Shown here: one piece after another, positions 1,383 through 48,766 of the stretch
How positions within the stretch are numbered: the first letter of the stretch is position 1
Layout of the letters: each line of letters starts with the position of its first letter
DNA from: Paraphysoderma sedebokerense
Lineage: Eukaryota > Blastocladiomycota > Physodermatomycetes > Physodermatales > Physodermataceae
Length of the DNA: 64,000 nt
Direction of reading: 5' to 3'
Assembly: GCA_025602915.1 (NCBI GenBank)
Contig: JAHLJZ010000057.1
Location: forward strand, 92,753-156,752
Position numbers and translations under genes: made by a program
The notes under the pieces: model-generated
Databases searched by the model: none
Told to the model about the DNA's origin: nothing
What the model saw: only the letters and a program-made list of their open reading frames with translations

Positions 1383-1694
1383 TCTATACTGATAAATATT
1401 TGAAGAAGAAATCCTTAAATACGACAACTGAAGTAATTGCAAGTCTTGGATTCTTTCAGTTGACAAACTCCGTAATTGATTTTGCGAGTGTTAAAGCCCG
1501 CCACGCCTTAGATACGTGATCCAAGGCGCCTGAATTTAAGAGAGCAAAATGCGGAACAGCAATGATAGTAATTGCAATCAGGGTTGTATTTAGTGATACT
1601 GCTATAGCATATACATGCAATACAACTTGTCGTTCATATCGGGACAGCAACAGAGTAACAGGATAAACGGTAATACTAGTCTACAATGTGCAAT
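1383..1694. other. Spacer between VWA8 and NIF3 holding the left duplication boundary
   Basis: This stretch holds the VWA8 promoter side, the 3' flank of NIF3, and the left edge of the duplicated unit at about 1631. Short open frames on both strands cross it (for example minus 1456-1650, hydrophobic). None has family similarity I recognise or an ATG-led structure, so I call no gene. Confidence 0.6.
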
Positions 1695-2908
1695 CTACAT
1701 TATCACAAGGGGCTCTTCGTCAAACTTACTCACGACAACGTCAAAGCCTCCATCATCCTCTTTTTTCAACTCTGTATACAATTTCTCTGCTAGCACTGCT
1801 TCAAGAAACCCGCGTTCCGTATTTGTATGTTCACAAAGGATGACAGAAGTGTTATTCGCAACAGCTTGGAGAACTTCGTGGTGAGACATTTCACCTGTAA
1901 AAATGAGATCAGGGGGAGGGGAGAGTGGGAGAAGAACAGAGGATCCTGCATAATGGTTGAGGCTAAGATTAACTGATGAGAGCGAGAGCAGCAAAGAGCA
2001 AAGAGCAATTTACCGCTTCCGGCGCAGATTCCAACAGTTTCGATTCTTGAGGACCCATGACTTTCGGCCACTCGGACTACAAAGTTTGAAATGATATTCA
2101 ATTGGACGAATGAGTGCTCGTTATGCAGAATAATCATACCATGTTTCAATTTTAAATGAGCTTTAATTCGATCTACTGCCTCTAATAAAGTCAGAGGTTT
2201 GTCTAATGTAACCAGTCGACCCGATCCTTCTTGACCCGTGCCCTCTTTTGACGGTGCGGCCGGAATTCTAGTACCAGGGCCCAAACAGGAAGCCAACCAA
2301 TCATTGACTAAGAGCACATTAGAATACAAGCGATCAAAAGAGAAGAGAATATGGAATTTGACATCGATACTTGCTTCCTCCAACAGCAGCATCAAGGGAA
2401 GTATGAGGACTGTATATTGATATTCCACTTGCAGCGCACTTGAGTGCAATTTCTTGTTTTACAGACTCAGGGTTGCCTGGTTTCGACATAGTAAGCTGTT
2501 TCCAGCCCCGAAATATTGGTGGATGATACTTCATTTAAGAAATGCCGAATGTTGGCACGTCAAAAGGATGCTGAGGCCTCATCGACACGGTGGAGAAAGA
2601 GAAGAAAAATTACCGCAACGATGACACCACAAGAGGGATCATCAATAGCTTCACTAACAACATCCTTGGTAAGATCAATTGTCAAAAGCACTGTTGATGC
2701 ATGCTGTCTCGGGTACGGGCCTGAGTATAGAAAATGATTTTTGTAAATAGCTTACATAGCGGCAACACAGACAGGATGATATTGGTGGTATAGGTAAACG
2801 TTGCTTACACTCTACGAGGACACCGACATTGTCCCAGGCTGTCTCCGCAAATTTCAACGGCGCTATGCGGTCCATAGCACGGACAACACTGTTCAGCATT
2901 GTGTGCAT
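1695..2908 (-). CDS. NIF3: NIF3-family (DUF34) protein, unit 1 copy
   Basis: Six exons on the minus strand: 2908-2809, 2720-2614, 2528-2375, 2307-2140, 2076-2014 and 1945-1695, giving 280 aa in one consistent phase. Family blocks in order are FAETAWDNVGVLVE near the N-terminus, TVLLTIDLTKDVV, VAYHPPIFRG, SPHTSLDAAVGGINDWLA, a central VRVAESHG...VGICAGSG segment, and the C-terminal signature FTGEMSHHEVLQAVA followed by ILCEHTNTERGF. The histidines and acidic residues in these blocks are the di-metal ligands of the NIF3 fold. The family is conserved from bacteria to humans; its substrate is not settled. The third intron (2308-2374) is GC-AG with a strong gcaagt donor. Met 2908 was chosen because family similarity begins right after it, although the frame is open upstream to 3181. 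It is transcribed divergently from the sacsin-like gene across about 240 bp. Confidence 0.92.
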
Positions 2909-3149
2909 TATTGTTAGTGTCTGATAAATGATACTCGATGGAATATTTTCTGCAAAAGATGAGTTTAACCAGTTCACTTTAGGGGCAGGCGGATAGTGGG
3001 ACTCGGATAAAATCTGTTCATTATTAATGGAACACAAGGAAGGTGGCTTGGTCAAATGGAAACTCTGACGGTGGATTTTAGTTCCATTCCATCCCGCCTC
3101 CTTTCGAGTTCCATTCCTCAACTGCGGTGATAAGTTGGCTATCATTAGG

Positions 3150-6100
3150 ATGGCTGCACATACGCAATTTGATAAGGCCAACTTTCAGGCTGCTCTGTCC
3201 TCCGGAATTGAAGAAAAAGTTGAAGTCAGTAAGTTGTCGTCAGTCCCGCTGAATCTACCGCCGTGAATTACTCTTCCACAAGAACTTGATTCCCTGCTCG
3301 TTCCTACTATTATATTAATAAATTCTCATATTTGAATAGACCAGCGACACTTGATTGACAAAATTTTGGCCAGATATTCGGCACAGTACACAGTTTTTAG
3401 AGAGTTATTACAGAATTCTAACGATGCCGGAGCCAAAGAAGTCGTTTTGCAGTTCCAAAGCCAAAATGATAATCAATCACAGAGTAGCAAGAAAATAGAT
3501 ACCGTAATATACAAAAATAACGGTAGAGTGTTTATGGAGCAGGATTGGAAACGTTTGAAGAGTATCGCCGAGGTTAGTGTTAATGCGTCGATTCCATTGG
3601 AAGACTCCCCGCTTTGTCATCAGTCGTCACTGACTAGTCCTCTCTTCAACCTATACTTTAATCTTGCATTGTCATTCCCGCTTGAATATGTAGGGTAATC
3701 CGGATGAGACAAAGGTTGGATTTTTCGGGGTTGGGTTCTACAGTTTATTTTCTATTTGCGAAGAGCCATTAGTTTCATCAGGAGATCAATGTCTTGGTTT
3801 TTTTTGGAGAGGTGATCAATTATTTTCAATGAAAGCTGTGGTTCCGGAGAATGTGTCTGCAGAGGAACGTTTGTGGACAACTTTCTATATGGATCTGAGG
3901 GAGCCTATGAAGCTGCCAGATCGTGATGATTTCTCCAAGTTTATTGCAACTTCGCTCTCTTTCACTGAATTTCTGTGTACTGTTAAAGTATTTTACAACG
4001 ACGAGCTTGTAATATCGCTGTCGAAGAAAAGTTCGCCCTTTCGAGACATGCCGATTCCCGCTTATATAGAACGATCTAGTCCGAACAATGTATTGAAATT
4101 AAAGGCGGTTGAGATTCGACAGGTCCAGATGGAGGCAGAAGTTCTGCCTGAAGAAAATGCGTCGAAATTATCTTCGTTTCTCGGACTTGCTTCTCCTAAG
4201 ACATCTCGCAAAGAGAAGGTCAGCTGTACTATTTTCCTCAGAATTGCCCGAGCTGTTGTAGATGTAAAACTTGGTGCGAATTTTGCCGCCTCCATGCAAA
4301 GAACTACCAAGAAACCCCCGCCATCTACAACTGTCATCCAACTTATATATACGAATTACGACGAATATGATGCGAGCGAGAAAATGCGGACTAAATATTC
4401 AGTTTTCAACGACATCGTGCCATTTCCGTCGCAAGGACGTGTTTTTATCGGGTTCCCCACTCACCAGACAACTGGTTGTTCGATTCATTTAGCTGCGCAC
4501 CTCATTCCAACAGTGGAAAGAGAAAATATAGATTTTGTTGATCCAATATTGAATCAGTGGAATCAAGAGATACTTTCAATGGGAGGGCTATTGGCGAGAA
4601 TCACCTATGATGATGAAATGAACGCTATTAATCGGCTTTATACTGAAATCATTCAACCCGGCCGTAGAGAAGGGACGACGTTAAGCTCTCCGCCGTCTGA
4701 AGAATTTCTTTGGCTTTCCAAGAAAGCTATACATGCCATGAAATCATTCACTTTCCGGGATTCAACCCCAGCGTCTCTCGTTAACCGAATCATTTCGAGT
4801 TTCTTTTACAAGGCATCCAAACAGCCATTAGCGCTTCTCTCGACTCATGGCGTCCTCCCTTGTCCAACCGTTCGTGTTTTTGATTCTGATACAGAAATGT
4901 TCGTCAAGAATGTGCCTGCGGTTCCAAAAAAGCTTCTCTCGGATGTTCCAGATTTCATCAAACCATTGCAGCAACAAGGTCTAATCCGTGATATTTCAAA
5001 GGAGGATGTGTTCCAAGAATTAGCGGGGCGAAATCTTCCTGAAAATGAAATTGTCGCTGCGCTCAAATGGTGGATCAAAGGCTGTAAAATTGGCCAATAT
5101 AACGAGTCGGATCTTGTTTCGTTCAAACAACGATTAAAAATTACATCCGCAGACGAGACGCAGCCAAGAAAACTGGAAGCTATGAGGTACTTCCCGAACT
5201 ACAGGGTATTGCCCCCCGATGTCCCCTTGTCAACCGACACTTTGCCGATGAGTATATCCAAGCAGCTGATAGATTTAGATTTAGTCCAATGTCTTCGGTA
5301 AGCCTGCATTGTTTCCTATTTTACTGTGCCGTATTAACTTAAATTGCTTCAGTCTGTCTGAATTACCACTTTCGGCCTGGTCTGTCTTCATATCAGAACA
5401 TCCATCATTCTCCGGTCAGAATGCATCACCTGAATTCGTGCAAAAAATATTCGGTGTTCTCTCGCGTGCTTTACCGAACTTAAATCATACCGAGAGAACC
5501 TACATTGTGTCTGCTTTTACTGTCAAATCATGTATTCCGACCACTAAAGGGTGGAGAACCCCAGCTGAAAGCTATTTCAAATCAGTGAATCTGTTTGAAG
5601 ACCTCAGTGTAGTCCAGTTTCCTAATGAGAAAGTCGTGAGCCCAAAGTTGTTGGCAATGCTTGGAGTTAGAGAACATGTTGACTTGCAAATGATTTTTGA
5701 CAAGCTAGACACCTTGAATTGGGATCATGTCCACTTGGTGAGAACAAATTCGTCGTTTCTGTTGTCGTTCTGCTCTAATTATACCCAAAATTAGGTGAAA
5801 TATCTGAGTACAGTCAGCGATAAACTTACAGATTCCGAGATAGCGAAACTTAAAAATGCATACATCTTGCCTATTGAATCTAATGGTTCACCACAAACTA
5901 TCTCAACCGATAAATCAAGTAACAACTCAGCAAGTGCCCAAGTAGCGCCGGCTGTACCTGGCACAACGGCTCATGTTCCATCTAAACGATTTCGGGCTCA
6001 AGATGTCTTCCCACCCACAGAGTTATTCCGATCCCTTAAACTCCCCATTCTATCGTGGCCTCGAAATAAATGGCGATCGAATTCTCCCGAGACAAAGTTA

Positions 6101-9100
6101 CTCCATCGTCTTGGGCTTCCGACACATTTGACTCTACAATACATCATCAACCAATGCTCACTGGCCACTACTGCATCTGAAACTCGACTTTCGTTGTTGC
6201 AATACTTTTCAAACAATTTTGAACACTACAGGTGTCAATATGATCCGTATCGAATCACAGTCCCTTTTTTGCCCACCCAAGATGGAAGGTTGGCTCTCCC
6301 TAAGGACATATTTGTCGAGGAAGAGGTCAAGTTACTGGGATTTAATGTTTTATTGAAGGATTTGAAAGATAAAAAGGAATTATTAGGGGTTAGAGATCAT
6401 CCTAGTGGAAAGGAGCTGGTGGATACATTACGTCAGAAGCCTCCAAGTTTAAAAGAAGCTGTAGCAGTATTCTCATATTTAACTGGGCTCCAGAAGGGTA
6501 TGTTTTATGATTTCCTTCTTCCAGACAGCAGTTAATGAATCATTCTAATTATGTAATTCTCCCTCATTGTAGAATTCTCAAGAACCGATTTTTCCGTTCT
6601 TCGTGACTTAAAGTTTATACCGATCGTTACGAAAGCTTCAGAAGAAAAATATCATTATTCGGAACCGGGACGAGTTTATTTCTCAAATAATTCAAACAGG
6701 TACTCAAACAAGTCCTTGCTTTTTACAGTTTTCAGGCCTCTAACAAATCATGGTTACGTTAGTTCCCACTTGCCGCCTGACTTATTCGAGTATATTGATT
6801 TCGGACTTCCAGCCAACAATTTTCTCCGAGCATGTGGCGTGAAAGACGAGCCTTCTCCTATTGAATTGGCGCAATTAGTACTTGAAGATCCGCGGCGATT
6901 TTTCGAATACGGGGTTGATCGGTATATCGCTATATTAAACCAATTGGCTGCCCATTGGGAAGTTATTAGATACAGCAGCGGATTGGTTAGTAAAATGAAG
7001 AAAACTAAATGGGTGATCGGTTTGAAAGTAGAAAGTCAGAATAAAGTGAAGGATGTTGAAACGCTTGCGGAGAAGGGTGAGGCCGAAAAAATAGATGAAG
7101 GAGAGTTGGCGAAGGAAAAGACTCTTGCGAATTGCGAGCTGGCTATTCCTGGAGATGTGTATTTAATTGATGGTGTGTTCTCTGTGTTCACTGATTCGTC
7201 ATTGAATTATTTTTGTCTTTCCGTTTACTAACTGGTAGAGTCATTTTAGACCCCCTTCTTCAATCTATATTTTGTCCATTATCCTGCCCGTTAGAACCCA
7301 CCTTAGAAAAGATGTACGAAGCCCTGGGAGCCCGGTGGCTCTCAAGAATGGTCACATCGAAGTATAAACTTCACGGAACACCTATGCAGACATCACAATC
7401 TAAACGACTTCAAGCTCTCATACACCAACGTGGACCCTTGTTAATTTACGATAACAATTCATTGAACAATAACGTCAAATCGAACGCTCAATCCACCATC
7501 GATTCATTAAGATGTCTACAAGCCGATGGGATTGAGATTCTTCGCGAATTTAACAAATCAGTTCACAAACAACCTATTTCAGCTTGTGTAACTGAGGAGA
7601 GTTCTGGTCGTTGGGGTAGAAAAAGTGGGTATTTATTGATAGTAACGAAAGGCGAAGTTGACTTCTTCGATGTCGCTAGAGGATTGAGTGATTTGTTGTT
7701 TAAGAGGCCAAAATTGAATGATGCGCTGCTTTTGAGTACGATGTTAAGTACATCCCTGGATAACTTGCGGAGAAAAGGTTTGTTTAACATTGTCGCGGGT
7801 CTCGAACATCGCTGCTGTGTACTCACGATTCTTACTTGACAGGATTTCCTGTCGACAGAATTTTGAATATTGCCCCTCAGTTGAAGAAAGCAACACCGCC
7901 AGCCTCACCCTCATCTCAATCACCATCTCTGCAGCGAAAATTACCGGAATTACCGTCCCCGCCAGATAATTCCAAAGACGGTTTCCAAATGTCACAAGAA
8001 CTAGCGGCCTTTAAAGAGCTGAAAGAAATGTTTCCGGACGTGGATTCCAATTTTCTGCGTGGGCTTATACAAAAGGAAAAGGACAATCCTGTTATGAATG
8101 TTTCTAATCAGTTGTTAGATATGAAGTATCCTGTTGAGTCCAATCGAGAGGAGTCCCCAACGAAGTCGGAATTAGGACAAGATAGCTCGTTATCAAAATC
8201 GAATTCAAACTCAACGTTGGCCGAAAAGAAACCGTTACTGGAGAAACAGGAGAGTATTCCAGGCGGATTTTCCTCAGGACCATCATCTGGCGGAGGTGGC
8301 TTCGGAGGTGGTCTATTTGGATCATTATTAAACCAAGTTCAGCGTACCGTGGAGAACGCAGCCAAGCAAGCCGGGATTGACATCGCTCCAACTCAAACAA
8401 CGCAACCCAAATCTCCCATTGCAGGCACAGGCCCATCATCTAGCAATGCGCCGCAACAAAGAAAAATCAGTGAAATTGATCCTGCTTTCAATCGCCATTT
8501 AAAATCAGATTTGGATTCTTCCATCCGCTCTTGTCGTCCGAATTCGACATCCTCCATTTCCTCCACCCCCTCTGTCGCCACTCTTGCCAACACGACATAC
8601 TGTGATCTCACCCCAGGGCATGACCTACGACAAATAACTCAAATTGAGGCTGTTTCGGTTTGGCTAGATCCTGCAGTCTCGCCTGCTATCTTAGATACTT
8701 ATCAACTCGGGCTATACAGTTTCATTCGAATGTTAAAAGAGTTGGCGCAGGTATTTGGCGTTCAAAATGACGCTTTGAATTTGTACATGGATGATAAAAA
8801 TGAAACAGTTGCATTCAATCGCGGTCGCACGCTCTATTTTAATGCTGGGTTCTACTTGAAGATGCATTGGGAACAATCTAGAGGAGCGTTCACTCCGCGA
8901 ACATCTGATTCTTATACTTATTGGTTCATGGTATGTTTTCTAATTTTGGATTTCCATGCAGCTATGCATTGTACTCACGTTTCATTGTGAATTTGTTATT
9001 TGAATAGGTGTTTGCGCACGAATTGGCGCACAATCATGTAGCGGCGCATGATAGTCAACATGAATTTTACATGAGTAGTTATGCCAGTGTGTATATGGTT

Positions 9101-9148
9101 AAATTGATGAAGATGTTACTCGAGAAAGGAGTAGAACTTCAGATTTAG
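3150..9148 (+). CDS. Sacsin-like HSP90-type ATPase (DUF3684 family) with CUE-like segment and C-terminal HELAH motif, unit 1 copy
   Basis: Exons: 3150-3228, 3340-3572, 3694-5297, 5353-5737, 5795-6497, 6573-7172, 7241-7777, 7843-8930 and 9008-9148, about 1,789 aa. The N-terminus is a GHKL/HSP90-type ATPase: N-box FRELLQNSNDAGA, then VGFFGVGFYSLF, as in sacsin and the fungal DUF3684 family. A long middle region follows without a motif I can name. Around residues 1434-1472 FKELKEMFPDVDSNFLRGLI resembles a CUE ubiquitin-binding helix bundle; a Ser/Gly-rich linker comes next. The last exon encodes FAHELAHNHVAAHDSQHEF, a HExxH zinc-peptidase-like motif with further histidines. A chaperone or proteostasis role is an inference from the ATPase and CUE-like parts. 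A 36-nt stretch (6700-6735) looks like a mini-intron, but it is open, divisible by three and unusually short, so I left it in the exon. Confidence 0.85.
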
Positions 9149-9674
9149 AATTTGTGAACTTTCTGATAACGTACTTTTAATTGTAGAGTATCTCGTACCG
9201 TAGCATGTGAAATTGATGATGATTTGTGTATATACTGTACTTTTATTTAAGCATGAATGGAATTTACTCATTTTCCATGTCAATACGTTCGCATTCTCAT
9301 TGACCCAAGTGCTCGCCAATGTTGGAGGGAGCATTCGGACTTAAATCGTCAATCTGAATCTTCCACAATCATTGGAAGAAAAGTAATCCCTCGTTTATAT
9401 CGCAGATTGATGTCGTGATTTGGCGCTAGCATGAATTAGACTCGTTGATCCCTGGCAAAAGTGTTGCCTTCCGTTTCAAAAATTCGCACTTATTCTGGTC
9501 ACGTGACATTCACGCGGCATCAATGACGTTGGCCGGCATCAACAACGAGGGAGTACCTTTCCAGTTGTCTCCTTGCGTCCGTCCCCTCAGACATCACCGC
9601 AAACAACTCTGCAGAGAAAACGTACAAAACATACAATCCAAATACAGGAAATACCTCATTCTCCGATAAACGAA
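9149..9674. other. Intergenic: 3' flank of the sacsin-like gene and promoter of the FAD oxidoreductase
   Basis: No coding region is supported. Short frames such as minus 9116-9334 and plus 9445-9669 have no family similarity. The notable element is the CACGTG palindrome listed separately. Confidence 0.6.
9498..9507. promoter_or_regulatory. 10-bp CACGTG palindrome upstream of the oxidoreductase
   Basis: GTCACGTGAC is a perfect palindrome 168 bp before the oxidoreductase ATG. CACGTG is the E-box core bound by fungal bHLH factors of the Cbf1 type. Regulatory use is inferred. It recurs at 33051-33060 through the duplication. Confidence 0.4.
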
Positions 9675-12168
9675 ATGAATGCGACTGATATCTTTACTTC
9701 GTCATCTAATCTTTCATCTGAATACCCAGATTCACTCGTTGAAGAAGCTGTGATAAATGAATCAAACATCCTAGACGTTTTGGTCATTGGTGCTGGTCCT
9801 CATGCGTTAGCTTTCTTGACAAGATTACTGGAACCGTATCCATCTGCCATTATGGATGATCGAGAACATTTGAGAGTACTCAGGTGGCGCAAACGTCAAA
9901 ATGAACGGGAGGGGGATGAAAATGACCTAGTGTCGAAGCGGAAAAAATTGGTCAAGGAAAAAGTAATGGTTGTCGATAGGTTTGGATTCTTCTATTTCAT
10001 TCAATTTGTCAATTAGGCTTCTTAGGGATAAGACTAAACGTTATTGTTTGTTCTTTTTATAATGCAGGCATGGAAAATGGATGCACCAATGGAACTCGCA
10101 ATTTGCCACATTCCAAATAGACAAATTGCGATCTCCAGTGTATTTTCATCTAGATCCGTGAGTATCAATTTTTGTGCAAGCTTCGCTATAAATTTATATT
10201 AATGAACACATTTTATAGACATGATCACAGTGGGCTTCGTGCTTTCGCTGAAGAGACTGATCGGATGGACGAATTATACCATCTCGAAAATATTTTTGAG
10301 GACAAGAGTCATCGCAAACAGGATGGGTAAGTAGCTTGAATATCTTTTATGCCGATATCATAGTTATCGCATTCGGGACTAAGATGTATAAGGTGTAATC
10401 ATTAATACCACGGTTTTTTAATCTACCATCAAATAGAAAGAAATTTCGAACTCGAGGAACCCTATTTAATGAAACTCATCGCAATGAATACTTCGTCCCC
10501 TCGACCAAACTCTTTCATCATTTCAATCAAGAACTGTTGAAACGATATTCACTCTCCGATTCAGCAATCATCAAAGCAGATGTCGTTTCTATCACGCCTG
10601 TGAATGGACCAGGAAGTTCAACGATATATCAAGTTTCCTTATCAAACGGAGAAATTGCTTACGCGCGAAGTGTGGTGTCTGCCATTGGAAATGCAAACCT
10701 CAAACGGGTTCCTTTATGGGCTCAAGATTTACGAGTCTCGGGATATCAAGACAAAATAGTTCATGCTTGGGAAATGAATCAAAACTGTATTCATGACATT
10801 GATGCAAACAGTGGCGAATCTACAATTGCTCAGAACAGTTCCAAATCTTTAGATGAATGTAAAATCTGTCAATTTGGTAAATTCACGGACAATGGCGAAA
10901 TCAGGAAATCCTCTAAAAATTCACGTCGGAAAAAACTCAAGTCTCGGAATCCCGAAAGGCACGCTGTTCCTAAAGCCAAATCTTTACAAAATCTCACACC
11001 AGCGAAACGACCTAGCATGTATCTTCCAATAGAAATATCTGCAGATATTGAAGCGAAATTGCAATCGCCGAATCATCGACCGAAGCTCCTAATTGTCGGT
11101 GGAGGATTAACTGCCGCTCAATTAGCTCGTGTCGCGGTTGGTCGTGGGTTCGAGGAGGTTCCGTTATTTTTACTTACATAAGATGACATTAAAAGGATTA
11201 TAATCTAATATTTTTATTGTATGAAACAGATTCAAATGATTACACGCTCGCACTTCAAGACGAAACAATTTGACGTTGATCTAACTTGGGTTGGTCGATA
11301 CCGAGGTGTTTGCTTTCAAAAATTTTGGGAAGAGACTGATAAGTTCGGTAAATATCGCATTATTTTAAATTATACCCACAGAGTCACTTATTTCTTTTTT
11401 TTTTATTATAGAACGTGTCAAGATGATTCGGCGTGCCAGAAATGGTGGCAGTATTACACCTGAGATGATGAGTGTTTTGAAACAATACATCAACAACGGC
11501 ATCCTTCGTATGCAAAATCAATGCGAAGTAACGAACTGCATTCGTTGTGAGGACACCAATAAATTTAAAGTGACATATTCCAACGGAGAAACAGATTATG
11601 TGGATTTAATTTGGCTGGCTACAGGAAGGTAAGGGAATATATTCTGGAATTTATATTTAAAGTGTCGTTGCTGAAATACGTAATCTCTAGCTTCTTAGAT
11701 GCAAGACAAGAGCCCATATTCAAAAATTTTATGGATGAGTTCGACGTGTCTACAGTAGAAGGATTCCCAGATGTCACTGAAGGTAAAGTTTATCACAAAA
11801 CACGCAAAATCAGGGACTGCAATCTAAATTGATATTCTACACCACCAGACCTGCGACTCCATCCTGATCACAACGTTTTCGTTCTTGGAGGTTATGCTTC
11901 ACTTCAGTTAGGACCAAACGCTATCAATCTAATCGGAAGTAGAGCAGGCAGTGAACGTGTTGTAAGTGTTTTGGAAGGATTGTTAGACTTGGGATTTGAA
12001 AGCGATGTAACAGATGAGATCCAGGATTCTGGAATTGGTTCTGAGGACGGGGATGATGTAGATATTCAAAAGAAAGAAATTTGGAAGGGACAGAAAGCTA
12101 TTGAGGTATTTTCTAATGCTGGTAACTGGTTTGAAGTCTTGGATGGATTGGGCGATGAAGAGGATTAA
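9675..12168 (+). CDS. FAD/NAD(P)-binding oxidoreductase (monooxygenase-like), unit 1 copy
   Basis: Eight exons: 9675-9979, 10068-10157, 10219-10326, 10437-11157, 11230-11347, 11412-11628, 11691-11782 and 11849-12168, giving 656 aa with all phases consistent. The FAD Rossmann motif VLVIGAGPHALAF lies at residues 37-49. HGKWMHQWNSQF and IDKLRSPVYFHLDP follow, as in flavin N-hydroxylase-like and related oxidoreductases. A second dinucleotide motif, LLIVGGGLTAAQLA, near residue 384 probably binds NAD(P)H. The typical late motif DLIWLATG and a C-terminal FVLGGYASLQLGP close the FAD fold. Between the two nucleotide-binding motifs there is a Lys/Arg/Ser-rich insertion of about 80 residues. The C-terminal 60 residues are strongly acidic. 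The substrate is unknown. The ATG at 9675 is the first in frame; the open frame before it lacks ATG. It converges with ETT1 across about 150 bp. Confidence 0.84.
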
Positions 12169-12321
12169 TGTGTTGTCAACCGATCCGGTTTTGACGATTG
12201 TTAATTGATTGGTTTAGCAAATATGATTAAGAATATTACATTTATTGAGCGATAAGATCGTTATGCTGTATGAATCTTTGTGACATGCGAAAATTTGTAT
12301 ATACAACGACTGAGAGCGCGA

Positions 12322-13943
12322 TCAACGATCCAAATCGTGACAAACTTTCTCTTTTAATTCGACAATTATGTCATCTACATCCGCTCCAGCATCCTTCGCA
12401 CTTCCGAAATATCTTAACGCTTCAGCGTAATGATGATTTGATTGTTTTTTAAAATCAATATCTTGGATTTTAGATTCGAAAATTGGCTTTTCTTCCGAAG
12501 TCAGCGGTTTCAGGCGATACTCGTAAAGCGCGCCGAGGTTCAATTGCGTCTCAGCCATCTGTGATCCAAAACAACTTAATGGGTTGTCTACACATGTCAA
12601 GAATTGAAAACGAATGGACATACCAGGGAATACACCTGTTCTCGAAGAGTTTGCTCAACGTCAGAGTCAAAAAGCTTGATTGCCTGATCTAAGGCATTTA
12701 CCGTCCGCTCTGAATATTCCTTCGCTTTGTTGAACGTTGAAAACGATATATTAGTTTCTTCTTCTTCATTTTCGTCTTCGTCTACGTTATCGTCCCCAGC
12801 GGCGGATTGAATAATGAATGAGCCAATTGATGAATACGCTGTGGCATAGCCAAGTAAGGCTGGGATGCGGATATTCGGGTCGGTTGATTCTATGGAAAGA
12901 AAAATTCAGAATTACATATGGAGATAAAAAAGGGGATCAAAGACAAACCTTGACTAATCTGGTCGAACAAATTGGCTGCCCATATATTATAAGTTCGCTT
13001 CTCCTCTTCGTTATCTACGAAATCACCATACATTTGAACTTGCCAGGCCATGTCAACCAAGTCCTTTATGGTATTCTTCATCTCTTTCGTTTTCGCTTCT
13101 ACGGTATCCTTTTCTTGCATAATAATCTTCACAAGCTCTAGACTCGAAGACGCCACTCTGTCGAATTTTTCAATAGCCGCTTTAATGAAGTCATGTCGCT
13201 TTTCATCGGTCCATAATTCGGACTGATCGTCTAAATCACCAGACAGCCCACTCATGCAATACTTAACACAATATCGCCCATCTAGCAAATCAATCTTGCT
13301 TTCTATTGAAGATCGGTCTTCGGGTTTGATATCTTTCACAAGATCTCGTGCTGTCGATATCTTATCGCAAATTGCTGACAGATACTCTGATATCTCCATG
13401 TCATCTTTAGACTTGAACATTTCGTCGGTACTATTTGATACTTCTCCTTCCTGTGATGATTCGCATTCTAAATGAAGATTGTTACTCAATTCGAGTAGGG
13501 CATTGCCGTAAACTACGTATAAAGAGGCCAAAGAGCATGGGTCCTGAAGTTCGCCCAAGCGTATAATACGGTCGCATTCATGTATAGTGGCTCTTAGCAA
13601 TAAAATTCCATTCTCGATATCCTTCTGAGTCACTAGTGGAGTGTGAGTAATCCAGATTAGTTCACAGCCAATCTCGATTCCGAAGCATGTGCAACGAAGT
13701 ACCAAGTTTATCCATGGCCATATCAAACAAGGCCTGAGTCTCTGCAATTTCGTTGCCTTCTTCTACGTCGGGCATCATGATTGTTCTGCTTCCATCATCA
13801 GATTGGCTTGTCGACGACAAGTCCGATTCTACTGTAGATCTGACTTTCTTAGTTGGCTGAGAGTCGTAAGTCGACTCGGTTGGTGTCGAGGAAGATGACG
13901 CTTTTAAACCTCTGGGACGTTTTTTGGAATTACCTGCAGTCAT
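12322..13943 (-). CDS. ETT1: ETT1/NRO1-like protein (enhancer of translation termination), unit 1 copy
   Basis: Four exons on the minus strand: 13943-13703, 13632-12949, 12889-12636 and 12558-12322, giving 471 aa with phases 1, 1 and 0. The N-terminus has the family signature SKKRPRGLKAS (KRPLGL in yeasts), then a charged low-complexity region. The second exon opens with VTQKDIENGILLLRATIHECDRIIR, matching the conserved NGIxHECDRLLR block of Ett1 and Nro1. The rest is helical and TPR-like, with an acidic stretch (DDNVDEDENEEEE) in exon 3. In yeasts Ett1/Nro1 is a nuclear protein that helps translation termination and controls the Ofd1 dioxygenase; that role is knowledge of the family, not visible here. 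It is divergent from the kinesin, and a CACGTG palindrome lies about 80 bp upstream of the ATG. Confidence 0.82.
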
Positions 13944-14466
13944 TATGTAAAGAGGGAATGGATAATGATGAGTCTCGCACTATGATATCAATATATAACC
14001 GATATTAAGACATTGCATCTCTATCACGTGATTACTGCGATATAGCAACGAAGCTATTGCCCGGGCATTAAAATGCATAGACACATAAAAACGGCAATAA
14101 TTAAAGTCTTTACCCAAATTCAGGAATTAAAGATCCCATAATAAACAGATGTACGTTTAATCTAGACTCATGAGACTACGAGGACGCCAAGATTATATGT
14201 CGGAGAGCGTCCAAATTTCGAATTATATGCTCTGGTAATTGTATCTGGGATGGCTAATGGAATTATGGAAAGGAAGATAGTAGCAAATTTGAGTTCAAAT
14301 TGTCGGAATTTATGTGACCGAGATGCAAAATGTGGACGTGAGAAGCCCATTCCATATAATTAAACTTGATACGGGGTGCCTGAAATCTATATTCACCACA
14401 TTGTTGCTCTTCAATCCGACTGCCTTCCCCATTCATTACCAGACTGCATAGAGATATATATTACCT
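13944..14466. other. Divergent promoter region, ETT1 / kinesin
   Basis: No coding potential that I can support. It contains two 10-bp palindromes: ATCACGTGAT (14023-14032) and TGCCCGGGCA (about 14058-14067). Small frames (for example minus 14168-14350) lack family similarity. Confidence 0.6.
14023..14032. promoter_or_regulatory. 10-bp CACGTG palindrome in the ETT1/kinesin promoter
   Basis: ATCACGTGAT shares the 8-bp core TCACGTGA with the element upstream of the oxidoreductase. It sits 80 bp before the ETT1 ATG and about 435 bp before the kinesin ATG. A bHLH binding role is inferred. The second copy is at 37576-37585. Confidence 0.4.
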
Positions 14467-25185: not shown

Positions 25186-25247
25186 TTCATATCGGGACAG
25201 CAACAGAGTAACAGGATAAACGGTAATACTAGTCTACAATGTGCAAT

Positions 25248-35721: not shown

Positions 35722-35874
35722 TGTGTTGTCAACCGATCCGGTTTTGACGATTGTTAATTGATTGGTTTAGCAAATATGATTAAGAATATTACATTTATTG
35801 AGCGATAAGATCGTTATGCTGTATGAATCTTTGTGACATGCGAAAATTTGTATATACAACGACTGAGAGCGCGA

Positions 35875-37496: not shown

Positions 37497-38019
37497 TATG
37501 TAAAGAGGGAATGGATAATGATGAGTCTCGCACTATGATATCAATATATAACCGATATTAAGACATTGCATCTCTATCACGTGATTACTGCGATATAGCA
37601 ACGAAGCTATTGCCCGGGCATTAAAATGCATAGACACATAAAAACGGCAATAATTAAAGTCTTTACCCAAATTCAGGAATTAAAGATCCCATAATAAACA
37701 GATGTACGTTTAATCTAGACTCATGAGACTACGAGGACGCCAAGATTATATGTCGGAGAGCGTCCAAATTTCGAATTATATGCTCTGGTAATTGTATCTG
37801 GGATGGCTAATGGAATTATGGAAAGGAAGATAGTAGCAAATTTGAGTTCAAATTGTCGGAATTTATGTGACCGAGATGCAAAATGTGGACGTGAGAAGCC
37901 CATTCCATATAATTAAACTTGATACGGGGTGCCTGAAATCTATATTCACCACATTGTTGCTCTTCAATCCGACTGCCTTCCCCATTCATTACCAGACTGC
38001 ATAGAGATATATATTACCT
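37497..38019. other. Divergent promoter region, unit 2 ETT1 / kinesin
   Basis: Same content as 13944-14466, with ATCACGTGAT at 37576-37585. No gene seen. Confidence 0.6.
37576..37585. promoter_or_regulatory. 10-bp CACGTG palindrome, unit 2 ETT1/kinesin promoter
   Basis: ATCACGTGAT, 80 bp upstream of the second ETT1 ATG. Possible bHLH site. Confidence 0.4.
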
Positions 38020-41000
38020 ATGCCCATATCCCCTTCGCCGTCCTCGTCTTCCCTCCATTCGGATTCGACAGTCGCAGGTATTGTTTAAGTTATCCGTCCT
38101 TGCCAAACTAATGCGCGCGACCTTTCGATTTACTTTCTTCATTAATATCCAAAGGTTCGAAGGGTGAGAATGTTAAAGTAACAGTGAGGGTGCGGCCTCT
38201 TACGCCATCCGAAGAAAGGGAAAATCAATATGGAGTATGGGATGTAGATGCACTAGACTGCACCGTCAGATTGTCGAAGGAGTTTGCAGAGAGGAACAAG
38301 AAATTAGTAACCGACTTTCGTTATGGTATGTAACAACATTGATCTATTATTGATGAAATTGGCTACATTGCATTGCATTACTGTGATGTGTGAGGAGTTT
38401 TTAAGACGAATGAGTGTAGAAGACGACGAAGTGTTTAGCTCAAATCTATTAACCACATATCTGTTTGTTTATGTTCAGACCAAGTATTTATGGGAAGTAA
38501 TAACGCAGTGGTTTATAGTCAATCGGTTAAAAATTTAGTCTGGTAATGTTGGAATTTTGTATTGGCAGTCTCCGTTAATCACACAAGCAGCTAACATTGC
38601 CGCTCACCAAGGTCTTGCATGGAAGGATACAACGGAACTGTTTTTGCCTATGGACAGACTTCCAGTGGTAAGACATATACCATGGTTTGTCTCAAACCTT
38701 TCATATTTGCGAAGGAGTGTTCGAAATTGGATTGATTGACAACTTTCCATTAGACTGGTACTGAGTTCCAACCTGGTGTCATACCTCAAGCGGTTGAAGA
38801 TGTTTTCGCCTATATCCATCAGGTAGTTCTGGCCATTAATTCTTGCTTTCTGATTTTTGAGTTACTCACCTCTAATTAGTCTGCTGGAAAAAGAGAATTT
38901 TTGCTGCGAGTGTCGTACATGGAAATTTATAACGAAAGTGTTCGTGACCTTCTGTCGCCAGAAACAAGAGATCTGCGTATTCATGAAGATAAAAAGGTAG
39001 TTATATTTGAATGTTCTTGTGCGATATAACTATACTAAACAGTTTTGGTTCAGAGGGGTGTCTATGTTAGCCCGCTGAAAGAAGAAATCGTCACTACACC
39101 GAAACAAGTTATGCGTGTGATACAACGTGGTGAATGTACCTGTTATTTTACACTATTGAGTTGAGCAATATCCGGGTTATTCATTAATCGTCGATAATAG
39201 CAAATCGTCACGTATCTACGACCGATTATAACGAACATAGTAGTCGTTCACATACAATATTTCAAATGGTGATTGAGAGTCGGGACAACTCGTCCCTGTC
39301 CAGTCCGGCCCAGCTGCGAAAAGGGGGGAAAGGTTCTAACGCCGTACGAATTTCTTTATTGGTTAGTCTCTCGTCCTTTAGTCAATGAATCTGTTGCTAT
39401 GTATTGATGGTACTGTGCATCAGAACTTGATAGATTTGGCTGGGTCAGAGAAAGCTTCTTCGAACGCCGATCGCAGAAAGGAAGGTGCTTACATCAACCG
39501 TTCATTGCTGACTTTGGGGACGGTTATTTCAAAGTTGACTGAGGAAAAAGGGTCTGTATTATTTCTATTCCTTGTGGCTCCTGTGGGTTTTTCTAAGTTT
39601 AGGGTCAATATTCAGATCACACATTCCCTTCCGAGATTCTAAGCTGACTCGGATACTACAATCATCCCTGAGCGGAAATGCTCTTGTCAGCGTCATTTGC
39701 ACAATGAGCCCAAGCTACGTTAACGTCGACGAGAGTGCAAACACGCTGAAGTTCGCCGCTAGAGTGAAGAGAATCGTTACACGAGCCACAACAAATCAAA
39801 TTCTTGACGATAAAGCTCTACTTCAGAAATATAGATTAGAAATAGCAGAACTGAAAGAGAAGCTGATGATGACAAATGAATTATACGAAAAGCAAAAGCA
39901 ACAAGAGATCGCTGCGCTGAAGCAGGAGAAGGAAAAGGTATGGGTGACCCAAAAAGGGAGCAAACGCACACACACGGTTAACCTTTTACCTCTAGTTCGA
40001 GGAAGAAATAGCAGAGCAACAGTTGCTTCGCACTGCGCTGAAAGAGAGGATAGATCATTTGACACGTCTCATTCTGACATCTTCGTCTATCAATGCAAAG
40101 TCTCTTGGTACTACTTCGATATCGTCATCAAATGTAATTATTCTTTCTAGTGGTTGCATTTCCAATCGAGACATCTAATGTATTAAATTTTCGCTTCAGT
40201 TGATTACACCAGGCATGGGTTCAGCGGCTAGCCAACAGACCTCTCAGCAGTCTCTGCAGTATGAGAAGGTGCGACAGTCTGGTTACTTTACTACTAATAG
40301 TCCGAATTCACATTCACATTATGAATATTTGTAATACTTTAGGAACGACTCGAACTCATTAATCATGAATTAATTCAGAAAGACGTAATGATTCAAAAAC
40401 TTCATTCGGAAAATGACCGCAAGGATCGCTACATATCCCGACTTGAGCCAATATTCAGCCGCATTCTCCAATCAGAATTTCTTGATCATTCTCAGTTGAG
40501 CGAAATCAAGTCCGAGATTGCTTCCGCCAGGGACCATAGCGTACATCAGAGTCCGAATAAAGCAAACCAAGATCAAAATGATGTCGGTTCACGTGCTGAA
40601 ACCCCAGGTAACAAGGATGAAGAATTGATGACATTACGAAACGTGAATCGGGAAATGGAGATCATCCTGAAAGAACAAGAAGAAAAGATTACTCAATTAC
40701 AATCAATGATATCCGGTGGAAATCCTGCCGACAATACGAGTCGGTGTACAAGCCCTGTGTCGAGTCAGACTCAATATGAACTTCAACTAGCTACACAGCG
40801 AATACAAGAACTTGAATCTGCAATAACCGATTCCGAAGATTTCATACGAGAGCTATCCACCGAAAACCGAGAATTCAAAACAATGATAATGGAACTCAAG
40901 AACAAGATACGAAAAATGGAATTATCACAATTCGAAAATGCCGAAGTCGCGACTTCACAACCATCTACACCTTCATCGACAATAGATTCATTCACCGATT

Positions 41001-41412
41001 CATTACAAAGTAGTCAAAATCAAGCTCCAACCATCCCAAGGCGAAGTTCGAAACGAGATGTGGAAACTACTGCTCGATTGAGAGAAGCAGAGTATTTATT
41101 GGAAAAGGAGAGAAAACTTAGGTTAGAAGAACAAAGTAAAATGCATGATCGGATTGCTTCATTAGAAGCTGAATTAACAATTACAAAAGGTGGTATTGCT
41201 TTTCAAAGATTGTAGCGTAATCGTCCTTTATTAACGGTTGTTAATTTCCTATTTCTTGGTTATTTTGATTAATTGTAGCCGAACTGTCAGTTGCCCAACT
41301 CGTATCCAATTTTTCCCCTGGCACTTCTTTTTCGCCTCCACCTTCAGACATAAATTCCACAACCGACAATTTTTCGCCCATCGAAGTTCCATCGTCTTTA
41401 AAGGACAATTAA
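38020..41412 (+). CDS. Kinesin-7-like motor protein, unit 2 copy
   Basis: Same product as at 14467-17859, with all exons shifted by 23,553; the last two are 40343-41189 and 41279-41412. Unspliced, the frame would end at 41215 instead. P-loop, switch I and switch II are intact. Confidence 0.88.
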
Positions 41413-42240
41413 TCTGTATCCACGACTACGAATTGCCCAGATGTATCTACCAAATTAGGGTGACCTCGTAGTGGTATTGCAGGTTCACCGACAAATATTA
41501 GTTCGCGGCAGGATGAAAACTTGGATGTAGATATGATCAGGATCCACTTTCGCTAGGTCAACTGTAGTATTTGTATTATACATTTTAAGTATTCTGAGGA
41601 AATTTATAATAGAAAATCGTTTCGAGGGATATAGCAGCGCAGGAAAGGCATTCAATTTTTCGTTGAAGTGTATCAACAACACAAAAACGGTTTTATTTCT
41701 ACTTAGTTAATGCACAACACAAGGAAACTAGAACACAAAGATTAAAACAACACGCAAAATTATGACTTATAAAGACCAGAAAGTTTTGTAAAGAAACGTA
41801 TAAAGGGGATAAATTTATAGTTTGATTACAATAATGTCTTGGCATCCTATTTTGCGTTGAAGTTTTGGAATATTTGATCGTAAAGTTTCCGGCAAGTTTT
41901 CGGGAACGAGTAAGGTCAACGTGAATACAAATCGCCGCATAAATATACACATGGGATAAACAAACGGGACGTATCGGCATAGTCAAGAGGGATAATAAAC
42001 ACAGCGGATTGATGAGAAGAAGATCGAGATGGAGGGTGTAGTTCGATTTACAAAGACAACGAGAGTGTGAAGATCGGTTACAATTTTGAAGGTAGATTTT
42101 AACAAACGAGAGAAACGGTAAGTACGGATGGTACAGTCTTTTTAGCATTGCGGTTATATATTTATAGATGTCATTTGTTGAGATAGAAAAAAAAGAAACC
42201 AAAATGGTAGTCAAAAATAGACTTTCCAAGGGAAAAGTGC
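41413..42240. other. Convergent 3' intergenic region, unit 2
   Basis: Same content as 17860-18687. No gene seen. Confidence 0.6.
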
Positions 42241-44913
42241 TTAAAGCGGAGAAGATGCAACAATGACAGTTTTAGCAATGTATTGAGAGGAAAAATTACA
42301 AACCAGAATACGCATGGTGTTCGTCTTTCCACTACCACCGCGCCATCCTTGAATTGCGACGACGTTGCATTGTTCAGGGATCTGTAAAAACGGCAGACAA
42401 TGCCATATGAGAAACAGTTTTGTAAGATCAGATAAGCCGCAGTTGTAACAAGTATGATAACAGAAGATATCGTGGTAGCGACTTACCAATTTTGATTGAA
42501 CGGCAAACTGAACAGCCCATCTAATTCTCTTATCGACATCATCCTGCCATTCGTCTCCAGTAGGGGTGGCAATTCCATGAGGTTCAGCATACACAAGAGG
42601 ATAAACGCCACGATACAAATGCATTTGTCGGGCAACATGTTCATATCGAGTAATAGCAATGATAGGGACGTGAGGTCGGTATTTAGCGACGAGACGGGCA
42701 GTGTTACCACTGTAAATTAGCAAAAAAAGAGATAACGCATGGTTAGATACGATGCGTAAAATGTGATACGTCAATAAAAGGGTGATCAGGAACCTGGTAG
42801 TCAGCACGATGATAGCCTTCAAATCTTGATCTTGTGTGGAGGCGACGGCAGAAACAGCGACGGTCTCGGTGTTGTCGAACGGTCGCTTGGCAAGAGCACG
42901 GACTTCAATAGTGAGTGGGGGATAGCAAATGACGGACTCAGCTTCGATACTACATAAAATCAATAATTATTTTTAGACAATCGTACGTCAATAAAAAAAT
43001 GCAAATAAAGAACCGAAGCCAGAAATAAAACATACCACACATGGTGCATCATTTGAACAGTTTCAATCGGATATATCCCTTTGGCGGTTTCACCAGATAA
43101 CATGACACAATCAGCGCCATCTAATACAGCATTAGATACATCTGACACTTCGGCACGAGTGGGACGAGGATTGTTCTACACTGAATAAATTAGCAACATA
43201 ACTAAGGAAGCGGAGAACGCCAATGATACTGACTGTCATTGATTCCAACATTTGTGTGGCACTAGAGTAGAAGAGAGGTGTTAGATGAGAGAGGCGAAGT
43301 GCGTTGACAAAAAAACAAGACGAACCAAATAACTGGTTTTCCTTGAATATTGCATTTGGCGATCATCATTTTTTGGGCAATAAAGACTTTCTGTAACGGA
43401 ATTTCCATACCGAGGTCCTAACAACAACGTTTAAAGTGAGTTTCGATTGTAATTGGCTGGCAAAATCACAAAGAACTTCGTACCCCTCTAGCGACCATAA
43501 CGCCGTCGGTTTCCTTCAATATAGAGTCAAAGTTTTTGACTCCCTGTAAATTTTCAATTTTGGAAATAATCTTAATATGTCTTCCTTTTGGACCCAAGAC
43601 ATCTCTAATTTCTCTCACGTCTTCGGCTCTTCTGATAAAGGATGCAAAGATCATATCAACTCCTTGCTCAACTCCAAACAACAAGTCTTTTTTATCTTTT
43701 TCACTGACTGCCGGTAAATCGACGTCGGTACCAGGTAAATTCACGTTCTTACGGGATGACAATTTATGCGTGTTGACAGCTTTAGCGAGGATGTGGTGAG
43801 TATCAACGACTTTGGTCACGATAAGTGAAAGATTGCCGTCTTCAATAAAGATTTGTTTTCCAGGGGCCAAGGACTTGGTGAGGGAGGGGTATTCAATGTA
43901 AAGGATGGAACCAGTACATTTCCGTTCGTAGGCCGGGTCGTTCGTCAGAGTGATTTCTGAACCGGCTTCAATAAGAAACTAAGAAATTGGTGTGCTTGAC
44001 ATGAGCCAATGAATCATTCGTCAGTCGAAATGAGCAAGTTACATACCTCTTTGTCGTCCACCATGTAACCTGTTCTAATTTCAGGACCCTTGGTATCTGT
44101 GGATTGAAAGTGAGTACACACACCGACCGTGCAAGAATTATACACCACTACACGTACCAAGGGCAATAGCAACAGGCCTTCCGGGCATATCGATGAAGCT
44201 ATCTCTAGTGTTCTTTATGACAGAGGCATGATACTTGAGGGCGGATGGTCAATGTCAGTATAGAAATTTTAAGCAAAAGGGGCCGGGCCCCACCGATTTG
44301 ATCCCAAAAAGGAAATAGAATTCAGATTGTAAAAGCTTACTTCATATGATCCATGAGAGAAGTTCAACCGCACGATGTTCATACCGGCGTTGCGTAATTC
44401 TTGAAGCATTTTGACCTAAATACAACACAAGAAAGGGCCACGAAATATTTTGACATTCCGAACACGGATAATTTAATCGAGGGTCAATCAAGCAGAATCG
44501 GAATAAATCGCTTTAAAGATTCTAAAGTAGGGATAGCAAAACTACTTACCGTATTTGTTTTCGGCCCTGTTGATGGAGTACCATGTTGCGATAAGGTCCA
44601 AAAACACACGCAGCAAATTTGCGACAACAACACAACTGATCAGTCTTTGACGGAAAAGTTTGCACCGTAAACGTAGACATGTCTGCAAGAATAAAAAGAA
44701 CGTACCGATGGTACAAATGATGGATGTTCTTCGGGTGTTGGAAGGTTCCACCTCGATGTCCTACGAAAAAATGCTGGTCAGGACCTGAGGCCGAGACATG
44801 GCGCGCAGAAGAGGAAAAAGGAAGGGAAGGGAGGGAGCGGAAGACAAGGAATACGAAAGCATAACTACCATGCAAGAGATCCATTCTAGCTTTGTGGTGA
44901 CGAGGTCGGCCAT
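42241..44913 (-). CDS. PYK1: Pyruvate kinase, unit 2 copy
   Basis: Same 530-aa product as at 18688-21360, including the 17-nt exon 3 (44550-44566) and the intact catalytic KIENLQG and ARGDLG motifs. The whole 1.7-kb upstream region is duplicated too, so this copy should be expressed like the first. Confidence 0.94.
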
Positions 44914-46591
44914 TCTGTGTCTGTATTGGGGAGATGAGGGAGGACAGCTGTCTGCGTTTCTGCAGGAAGGATGCGGTGTTATCGATGCGAGCATTTTTCG
45001 GGCGACTTTGGATACAGGAGAGAAAAGGGGAATTTCTGCCTCAGATCAATTAAGCTCAAATTCCCACCTCAACGCAGAGAAGAACATCTATCCCTCATCA
45101 TCGTCATCATCATCTCCACCATCATCATCCGTATCATGGACCACTGCGAATTCGTCTTGTGTCGATTATGTTGGTTCCGGCCCAGCGCACGTCACTCATG
45201 ATACTCGTATAATTATTGCCGTGATTCGAAATAAATACTAGATGAAATATAATATTCGTGGCATGTTTCATTATAATATTGGATCTATGCTATTGCACAA
45301 GTTATGGCAAAATTCAATTATGATCATCTCACTGCAGTATATAAATAGAGTATTTATTCATTAATGTGGCACATATGGGATTTTGAAATATAATATCATG
45401 AACCGACATCGACACAAATTGGAAGAATCAAATATCATCCGGAATGATGCTTATAGTAGTTCGGCTCCCGCCAATGATTGAGGACCCGTTGCCGTCAATA
45501 CCTTAAGCATCTCAAATATGAGCATACGATGAAGCTCTCCTGGCTATTAATAGTTTTTTGGCTTCCATGATAGCTTATGTTCAAGCATGTTATGTTTTTT
45601 ATCGATCAATAGCCTAACTGTGTAAAATTATCGGGCACTATCTGCGTTTATCATGCATAATTGCGCCCCAGGCTTCGCCCATACCATTGCCATCCCGGGG
45701 ACAACCGTTTAATGAGGCAGCTAATATGATCGATATTCTCTGAATCGGCTAATCTGACCCTACTCGGTTCATTCCGCTGCAATCAATGTCATCTCAAAAT
45801 TTCCATTATTCACTGAAAGGAAAGGACAAAAAAAAATTTGCAGAAATTAAAAATGATGAACCGATATTCAATACCATTTGTTTTTCAATTTTCTGTTAAT
45901 TTCTGAAGATTTTTTTCCCTTCAGCCATGAGAGATCCAAAATGCATAAACCTGACAGTTGGACAAAAGCCAACCCAGATAATATGCGTGACATCACTTGT
46001 CAATCTAGCGGCAAAGTCGTTACGGTTTAATCATTAATGGGCAAGCATGCATCCAAATCGGCCCACTATGCCAGAAGCGGTACTCGAATAAGTGTAGCGG
46101 CATTCTAAATATTAAACAAAGGGCAGGGGAATTGGGAATAAAAGCTTCCACTTTTTAGACAAGCAAAAAGAATTCCAGATGCGTGTGATTTGAGCGAGGA
46201 ACCGCTTCCCTCCTGACATCAGCAATAATCTCTGCGGACTCCCCGTCTCTGTCGTTGCGAGAATTGCTTCTTATATTGTCCTGAGCATCTAGTACACTAA
46301 AAGTATATCACACAGTATCAGGGTCGCTGTACTTCGTCTGTATTTCGTCTGAATTGCACTGTTTGTCAATTCGTCATATAGTCCCGACCCAATTTTAGCA
46401 ACAAAGCGTGCAGACGGTATGTGTGGCTGTTGACTTAAAAGCATTTTCAGTCGACAACTTTTTATTCTCTTCTCAGACGTCTTTCGGACTTTTGCAAAGA
46501 AGTGAACCTGACATTGTATCATTCGTCCCCTTCATCCTTTGCATAGACTTCCTGCTCTTCCAGCTCGGCCCTCTAACTGAATCCGATAATA
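44914..46591. other. Divergent promoter region, unit 2 pyruvate kinase / LEA-2
   Basis: Same content as 21361-23038, with the trinucleotide run at about 45093-45136. No gene seen. Confidence 0.6.
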
Positions 46592-48329
46592 ATGGCTTCG
46601 TCAAACCAAAATGCATCATCACAGCAGCATTACAACCATAACCTGGACTCTGAATATGCCGCTTCTGCATCCGCTCTATTGTCTGCCCTACCTACTAGTC
46701 AGCATCCGATGAATAACTCCTCTAGCGGTTATCCGCAGAACATCACTTATGACCCAAATTATCAACAGTCTGATAATGTGATTTCCTTGGTAGACTATTC
46801 AGAAGACTCGGGAGATTCATTGGATATACCGAATCAAGATATTCCCGCTACGACTGTATTGGAGAATGGGCCAAATGTTACCAACGAGAGTCGTCCTCCT
46901 CGAACTCCAGAGTCAGCTTTGAACTCCCAACGTCAGTCTCCCCATCCTCCGAGACAAAGTTATATTCGAAGCAGCACAATGGGATCACCGTTACAACCGA
47001 ACCCATCAGTAAATGGTTATTCTTCAACAACTCAGGGCCAAGCTATTGCAACCCCCCAGTCTCAATTTGCCAGTCAGCAGTTCTATTCGCCGTATCCTCA
47101 ACACCCATCTGAAGCAAGCAACTCTGCTGTATCATTTAGTTCATTGGAGAATCCTCAATTGAATTCTCAATATTCAGCACAACAAGCTCCGCCATCTTTT
47201 TCCGACGGTCAACCCAGACCAATGTCAGAAATGTATGCAAATCGACCCACGGCCGCTGCTGCTCCCGTTATGCCATCATTCCGCAATAGTATCGCTTCCC
47301 CGAACTCTGCGCAGCAGACTCAGTCTCAACAGAAGCCCGCTCCGACATACTTGAATTATGATAATTTTTCCAATGAGCCTGCCCCAGCGCCCCCGCCAAA
47401 GCACTCTCATAATATGTCTAGTTCCTCCGCTTTTCCCTACAATCGAACTTCACCTGCATATGTGCATCCTCAACATCAACACTCTTCGTCATCTGTTTCT
47501 CTTCCTTATGGTCAACCGAATACCCATTCTCAAATGACTCTAACGGAATCCACGAATAAACCTCTTCCTGTCATCGAACCCACCCGTCCCCCGACCAGTA
47601 AGCGTCCACCCCCATCTGATCCTTCGCAAGCACCACCACCTCGCCGCCGATACTGTCGCTTTAGAACTCGTCTTGGATGTTGTTGCTGCTTCTCATTCTT
47701 ATTCCTTATTTTGATAGCGGCTGGTTTAGCAGTGTTCTTTGTGTTCTTTTTCAAAGCGCCCAATGTTCAATTCGACAGAGCAGTACCTCCGTCTGACGCA
47801 CAACCATTTACTATTCAAAGCGACGGTACCTGGACAATAAATTGGGGACTTAGATTTAACGCTACCAATCAAAACTTTTTTACAATCAATCTGAATAATT
47901 TGGCAGTCAATGTACGCTCATTTTTCTTTTTTATCCAACACATGTGTGTATCAAATTTAACGCAATCCTTTTAATTTCCGTTACTTTTTTCAGGGTTTCC
48001 CCACTGCTGAACGAACACCGCCCGCTCTAGCTACAGGCAGTCTCCCTAATTTGTCCCTTGCCTCAAACCAACCCAACCAATTTACTCTCCCGTTCCAAAT
48101 CACATATAATCCTTCAACGGCCCTAACGGATCCTCGCTCACAATTCTTGGTAGAACTAGTTAGATCTTGCACTGGTTCCGACAATGGTAGAATCAAAATG
48201 TTTGTAAACATAGAAGTTGGCTGGGTGGTAATTAGTTGGACAGGATACAAATTTAAGTTTGATCGTGATTTAGATTTTGCTTGTCCGGTTGATTTAAGAA
48301 ATTTACGTGATCGGCTGGGACAACGGTAA
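46592..48329 (+). CDS. LEA-2 domain single-pass membrane protein, unit 2 copy
   Basis: Same 551-aa product as at 23039-24776. Exons: 46592-47911 and 47994-48329. It is followed by the ancestral right-hand context with an intact tRNA. Confidence 0.78.
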
Positions 48330-48692
48330 TCGATGGAAGATTTTAATGGCTTTTGTGAGTTGGTTTTGGGTGATCACGGAGAGAGAACAAAAGCAAAATG
48401 GAAAAAAAATTGATACTGTTCTTGCTTTTATTATTTATATCTTGAGTACTTTTTCTTGTATAAAATATAAATGTACTATCGAATTGATGAATTGATTTAA
48501 ACTGTTCGATAAATTGATCGATATCAAGTAACTTTGCAGGGAAAAATAAAAATCATCAGATTTGGGAATTTGGACATATTTAAGGTCGCTGCAGAGCAGT
48601 CCAACCAGGTATAAAAGCGGGAATGATATGAACTTTTCTGTCGTCCTTGCGTTAATGTAATATCATTCGTATTGCGACCACATCTCTCAGTT
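48330..48692. other. Spacer between the unit 2 LEA-2 gene and tRNA-Val(AAC)
   Basis: Same as 24777-25139. A TATAAAAG lies at about 48610-48617. No gene seen. Confidence 0.5.
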
Positions 48693-48766
48693 GTCTTCGT
48701 GGTGTAGTCGGTTATCACGTCTGTCTAACACACAGACGGTCTCCAGTTCGAATCTGGACGAAGACA
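48693..48766 (+). tRNA. tRNA-Val (anticodon AAC)
   Basis: A 74-nt cloverleaf without intron. The acceptor stem GTCTTCG pairs with CGAAGAC and the discriminator is A. The anticodon stem TCTGT/ACAGA closes loop CTAACAC, with AAC at 48727-48729. The T arm is TCCAG-TTCGAAT-CTGGA. The A box (TGGTGTAGTCGG) and B box (AGTTCGAATCT) are present, and a TTTTT Pol III terminator follows at 48767-48771. It resembles fungal tRNA-Val(AAC). The right edge of the duplicated unit cuts this gene at nt 46. Confidence 0.96.

Follow-up and report, generated by a model that had tools for sequence, protein, structure and literature searches.

A perfect 23,553-b head-to-tail repeat in a Paraphysoderma sedebokerense contig is probably a product of the assembler

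The window, a stretch of 64,000 nucleotides that makes up the final 64 kb of contig C57 of the Paraphysoderma sedebokerense assembly and ends where the contig ends, carries a 23,553-b unit twice in head-to-tail order; although the record does contain this repeat, the organism most likely does not. Judged from the letters of the assembly, the duplication is very probably false and made by the assembler. This reading is favored because the same assembly (195 contigs, 27,287,198 b; in falling size from C1 with 954,334 b to C195 with 10,333 b among the contigs whose size was seen) contains further perfect head-to-tail copies as well as many contig ends that recur exactly, and is supported by the position of the copy–copy junction inside a tRNA-Val gene, a repeat at which the contigs C128 and C78 also break.

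The original prediction described a duplication at a constant offset, identical also in introns and intergenic DNA, and a base-by-base comparison of both units bears this out: the 23,553 b agree at every base, and the window is free of N. Comparing the window with itself at an offset of 23,553 gives a single uninterrupted exact run, 1631–25185, of 23,555 matches, while identity in 500-b bins wholly outside the run is 0.21–0.30. Two bases, CG, are common to all three unit edges, which read TTGT-CG-TTCATA on the left, CAGA-CG-TTCATA at the junction, and CAGA-CG-GTCTCC on the right. Microhomology of at least 2 b at such edges has a chance probability of P ≈ 0.16, so the microhomology at the junction is not beyond chance and the shared CG carries no signal. 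The unit itself aside, the direct repeats found at the unit are pieces of tRNA-Val, and a search of the whole assembly with the unit edges (1631–2447 and 24000–25183) matched, outside C57, only tRNA-Val paralogues; no second contig with the unit's edges was found.

Table 1. Features of the window and of other contigs. Positions are those of the window unless a contig is named; gene spans are approximate.
Feature	Position	Strand	Basis
Copy 1 of the 23,553-b unit	1631..25183	+	exact self-match, offset 23,553
Copy 2 of the unit; the shared CG comes next (48737–48738)	25184..48736	+	exact self-match
Copy–copy junction GA-CG-TT, at the truncated tRNA-Val end; its sides have only CG in common	25182..25187	.	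sequence
First 47 b of tRNA-Val at the junction, without the 3′ half	25139..25185	+	sequence
Intact tRNA-Val(AAC); right edge of the unit just past its anticodon stem	48692..48767	+	ARAGORN
DUF34/NIF3-like gene, exon span	1695..3184	-	ORFs; Pfam DUF34_NIF3
Large multi-exon gene with DUF3684	3336..8990	+	ORFs; Pfam
Multi-exon gene, flavin monooxygenase look by eye; Pfam: none above cut-off	9507..12168	+	ORFs
Gene with TPR-protein look by eye; Pfam: none above cut-off	12322..13979	-	ORFs
Kinesin gene, 3′ part; 5′ exons upstream of the span	15829..17662	+	Pfam Kinesin
Pyruvate kinase gene; 5′ exons outside the span	18688..20425	-	Pfam PK, PK_C
Hypothetical-protein gene, membrane-bound look by eye; relative BKA69DRAFT_1040529	23024..24776	+	ORFs, protein match
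End overlap, 4,374 b	C13/C37
End overlap, 7,418 b	C13/C151
End overlap, 16,074 b	C58/C136
End overlap, 4,418 b	C76/C40
End overlap, 1,231 b	C43/C160
CCTAA at contig starts	C5:3–48; C76:218–247; C130:161–190; C144:194–218
TTAGG at contig ends	C30:252954–253003; C120:61068–61117; C138:35137–35161; C17:412240–412269

Both the junction and the right edge of the unit lie inside the tRNA-Val(AAC) gene, a feature absent from the original prediction; an Rfam scan at the gathering threshold listed the neighboring tRNA at 49651–49742 and not this gene. The neighbor (49651–49743) is itself tRNA-Val-like, without a clear anticodon in ARAGORN and with 52.7 bits for Rfam RF00005, and the insert in its anticodon loop resembles a 17-nt intron. 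Apart from the window's own copies, 12 places in the assembly were listed as matching the tRNA wholly or in part; one is the neighbor, and two are contig ends that lie inside the gene, the end of C128 and the start of C78. The former stops 3 b further along tRNA-Val than the window junction.

The manner in which contigs end bears on how they were built. The end of C128 falls exactly 55 b into the longest exact repeat that it has in common with a tRNA copy, at C78:9068, other than its overlap partner of 8.4 kb; the start of C78 falls exactly 55 b ahead of the point where such a tRNA-Val repeat ends; and C124 opens with the 55 b that close C160. Ends or joins placed exactly 55 b inside repeats or overlaps, as in these three cases, are, as far as contig sequences can tell, what a k = 55 de Bruijn assembly leaves behind, and 55 is a usual last k in the SPAdes family. 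In addition, C2 ends in poly-T, C56 in CT repeats, and C30 and C120 in a 24-b tandem repeat, which also fits short reads. For strain AZ_ISR of the same species, one report describes a dipSPAdes assembly of 150-b Illumina pairs (25.43 Mbp in 427 contigs; PMC9224648), and another describes the use of Falcon/FinisherSC for a different fungal assembly, at least one, that was annotated by the JGI pipeline (PMC6908789); how the present record was assembled did not emerge from the literature consulted, which included PMC11258239, PMC9224648, and PMC6908789. The possibility that the overlaps stem from long reads (Falcon/FinisherSC) was set aside, since the contig ends in question sit exactly 55 b inside repeats.

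In an assembler error of the kind we favor, one segment of ≈ 23.6 kb, present once per genome, would form a piece of a path in the k = 55 graph, and two overlapping contig paths, flank-to-segment and segment-to-flank, would have been joined with their common part unmerged, so that the segment came out twice in succession. The double printing may be triggered by the tRNA-Val repeat that lies at the right end of the segment, and the error that made the window copy would be the same as the one we believe acted on C78. In draft assemblies, false tandem duplications arise from overlapping contigs or haplotypes left unmerged; the window unit is like them in its identical copies, in its boundary at an assembly-breaking repeat, and in the many duplicated contig ends around it, although such pieces are usually left as separate contigs or joined by N, whereas the window copies are joined without N.

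The closest parallels come from the same assembly. At the end of C78, a segment that we call E stands in two head-to-tail copies with a period of 26,433 b and 0 mismatches in the 2,200 b compared, and C20 finishes on a 4,372-b segment present twice head to tail with 0 mismatches, the second copy running to the last base of the contig. The corresponding junctions lie at C78:83479 and C20:322631. The window unit resembles these cases in size, perfect identity, N-free join, and an end in an assembly-breaking tRNA repeat. Two further contigs, C55 and C79, both start with a 55-mer followed by E and are alike up to position 26,488 (470 b sampled, all identical), beyond which they diverge (93% identity over 160 b, 50 shared ones included). 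The 55-mer is present before the first C78 copy of E and absent before the second, and 26,488 − 55 is 26,433; the trim looks as if one graph edge had been joined to itself and the overlapping k-mer cut. The end-to-start form of E on C78 comes with 2–5 shared bases, and for E the fit to the graph vertex is exact. The 55-b offset could possibly reflect a true branch at the left border of E, such as an allele without E, with which contigs would likewise start 55 b before the border, but no contig was found that joins the left flank of E elsewhere, among contigs of which the smallest seen is ≈ 10 kb. For C20, no other, independent contig to which the same 55-b trim test could be applied was found. 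Together, the C78 and C20 cases point to a systematic cause.

Exactly repeated contig ends are frequent. Of 34 ends queried, at least 14 have an exact 100-b second place in the assembly, a floor, since 40 of the 71 candidates were scored for the first set of 17, and one that applies to a non-random sample in which several ends came from contigs already chosen for tRNA hits or known overlaps. Repeated were at least 7 of 17 in the first set (ends of C78, C1, C13, and C58; starts of C13, C40, and C160) and 7 of 17 in the second (ends of C79, C151, C136, C20, C70, and C160; start of C7), with the ends of C56, C30, and C120 and the starts of C70, C76, and C5 (low complexity or repeat family), as well as eight 60-b starts, left out of the queries. 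A further comparison confirmed the second places of the C1 and C20 ends. The last 8,372 b of C128 (C128:40857–49228) equal the first 8,372 b of C78 (C78:1–8372) with 0 mismatches; tRNA-Val genes flank this stretch, which may be a tandem duplication that the assembly broke at the middle one of its tRNAs, or else an overlap left unmerged. Five more pairs (Table 1) show matching sequence at either end of an overlap that has the same length on both sides and extends from contig end to contig end, the interior having been sampled in C58/C136 alone, where 500 of 500 b were identical. A 54-kb tandem copy on C1, suspected from its repeated end, was rejected on finding that interior pieces do not match, and the repeated end of C151 was rejected as a head-to-tail copy, not being head to tail at the period tested. 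On C160, the repeated end belongs to an array that is periodic at 2,198 b, includes an older, diverged unit, and may be genuine.

Not everything about the window unit fits an assembler error. The two sides of the junction have nothing but CG in common, and no overlap accounts for the junction; moreover, if the assembler used only k-mers derived from reads, reads across the junction must exist. The junction leaves the tRNA at 48738 (right end of the segment at 48736–48738), 3 b short of the graph vertex predicted from the paralogues, 48741, so the simple model is not exact, and at the predicted left end of the unit, ≈ 1576–1578, nothing was seen that would make a branch. It is because of these misfits (the 3-b miss, the unexplained junction bases, and the want of a second contig with the unit's edges) that we hold the artifact to be very probable and go no higher.

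Seven gene-like blocks per unit emerge from our own reading of ORFs and Pfam hits, with approximate gene models and part of the exons scanned, which agrees with the seven genes first proposed. The left edge of the unit lies 64 b past the stop codon of the last ORF of the NIF3-like gene. One ORF of the hypothetical-protein gene is 91% identical over 95% of its length to BKA69DRAFT_1040529 of P. sedebokerense, a gene model that differs from the ORF and bears a locus prefix that we take to be JGI's; another protein matches the same ORF at 98%. The original prediction had also stated that there was no terminal repeat or transposon signature. Indeed, a search of the window found no inverted repeat reaching 25 b, and Pfam found no transposase or recombinase domain in 18 distinct ORF pieces scanned from the unit; a mobile element was rejected on these grounds.

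To the right of the repeat lies an actin-related gene (52163–54515; Pfam Actin below cut-off), of which a diverged second copy is interrupted where C57 ends: the last stretch of that contig (63782–64000) holds short blocks of the copy's 5′ part at 86%–94% identity, and C128 opens with its 3′ end (C128:1–100, 88%). Given this split, C57 and C128 probably adjoin in the genome. A large gene with cadherin-like and Ig-like domains (≈ 55781–63207) has three relatives in a row at C13:290239–313516 with 67%–70% DNA identity, and elsewhere on C57, 22273–24610 and 25565–27882 (contig positions) are old tandem paralogues, 73% identical.

That the sequenced strain truly underwent a very recent segmental duplication in head-to-tail order, by end joining or template switching with the 2-b microhomology and with one break at the tRNA gene, is unlikely, including the form of it in which the assembler walked a true graph loop twice. 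Breaks at tRNA genes are plausible biology, as a tRNA gene may stall replication, and the window is like known recent duplications by end joining or microhomology-mediated replication in its direct order, its microhomology, and the lack of a mobile element found; such an event would supply the junction bases for which an overlap does not account, and a graph loop printed twice would likewise give perfect identity. Against it stand the other perfect head-to-tail copies and the many redundant contig ends, the exact 55-b trim on C78, the chance level of the microhomology, and the difference that C78 and C20 suggest a systematic cause. Furthermore, short reads at k = 55 alone cannot resolve a 23.5-kb identical repeat, so two copies cannot have been measured even with reads across the junction, and the identity is uninformative on age. 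If one supposes instead that the copies on C57, C78, and C20 are several real, letter-identical tandem duplications or circles of 4–26 kb, one of them ending in tRNA-Val, the supposition is a decidedly improbable one.

Scarcely probable is a segment single in the chromosome and also present as an extrachromosomal circle, whose circle-closing reads gave the junction that the assembler then wrote into the chromosome: the junction does have the end-to-start form, which E shares, but no empty junction from left flank to right flank is present in the assembly, either for E or for the window unit, and the Pfam scans found no recombinase or transposase domain. An old tandem duplication maintained by gene conversion, which would suit the identity of introns and intergenic DNA, is the least credible, because 0 differences up to both edges would need traceless conversion of the whole unit and because other tandem paralogues (the C57 pair, and the C13 relatives of the window gene) have diverged. 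Of the three options first offered, namely a very recent origin, gene conversion, and duplication by the assembly, the last is the best supported, given the redundant contig ends and the further head-to-tail copies; the standing of the repeat as a real, rarely caught tandem duplication finds no support.

A separate observation concerns the contig ends. Exact runs of four CCTAA units occur in 8 contigs only (30 overlapping matches, with 4 for the reversed control pattern). All of them lie no more than 1.7 kb from a contig end and are oriented as in a telomere: the 4 contig starts all read CCTAA forward, and the 4 contig ends all read TTAGG forward; short satellite-like pieces adjoin several of these sites. 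The runs are possibly a TTAGG (pentamer) telomere repeat, or an element that targets such a repeat, in this blastoclad fungus; a brief literature search for a TTAGG-type blastoclad telomere repeat found nothing.

Until reads across 25184 are seen, the repeat is not usable as evidence of recent duplication. If it is an artifact, as we believe, gene counts, copy-number studies, and gene-family studies on this assembly would be inflated, by about seven genes here and probably by more elsewhere, and the 55-base trim suggests a simple flag for false tandem copies in k-mer assemblies. A real window copy would offer a rare view of a segmental duplication newly arisen in an early-diverging fungus, and if the copies on C57, C78, and C20 were all real, segmental amplification in this blastoclad would have to be very recent or still under way.
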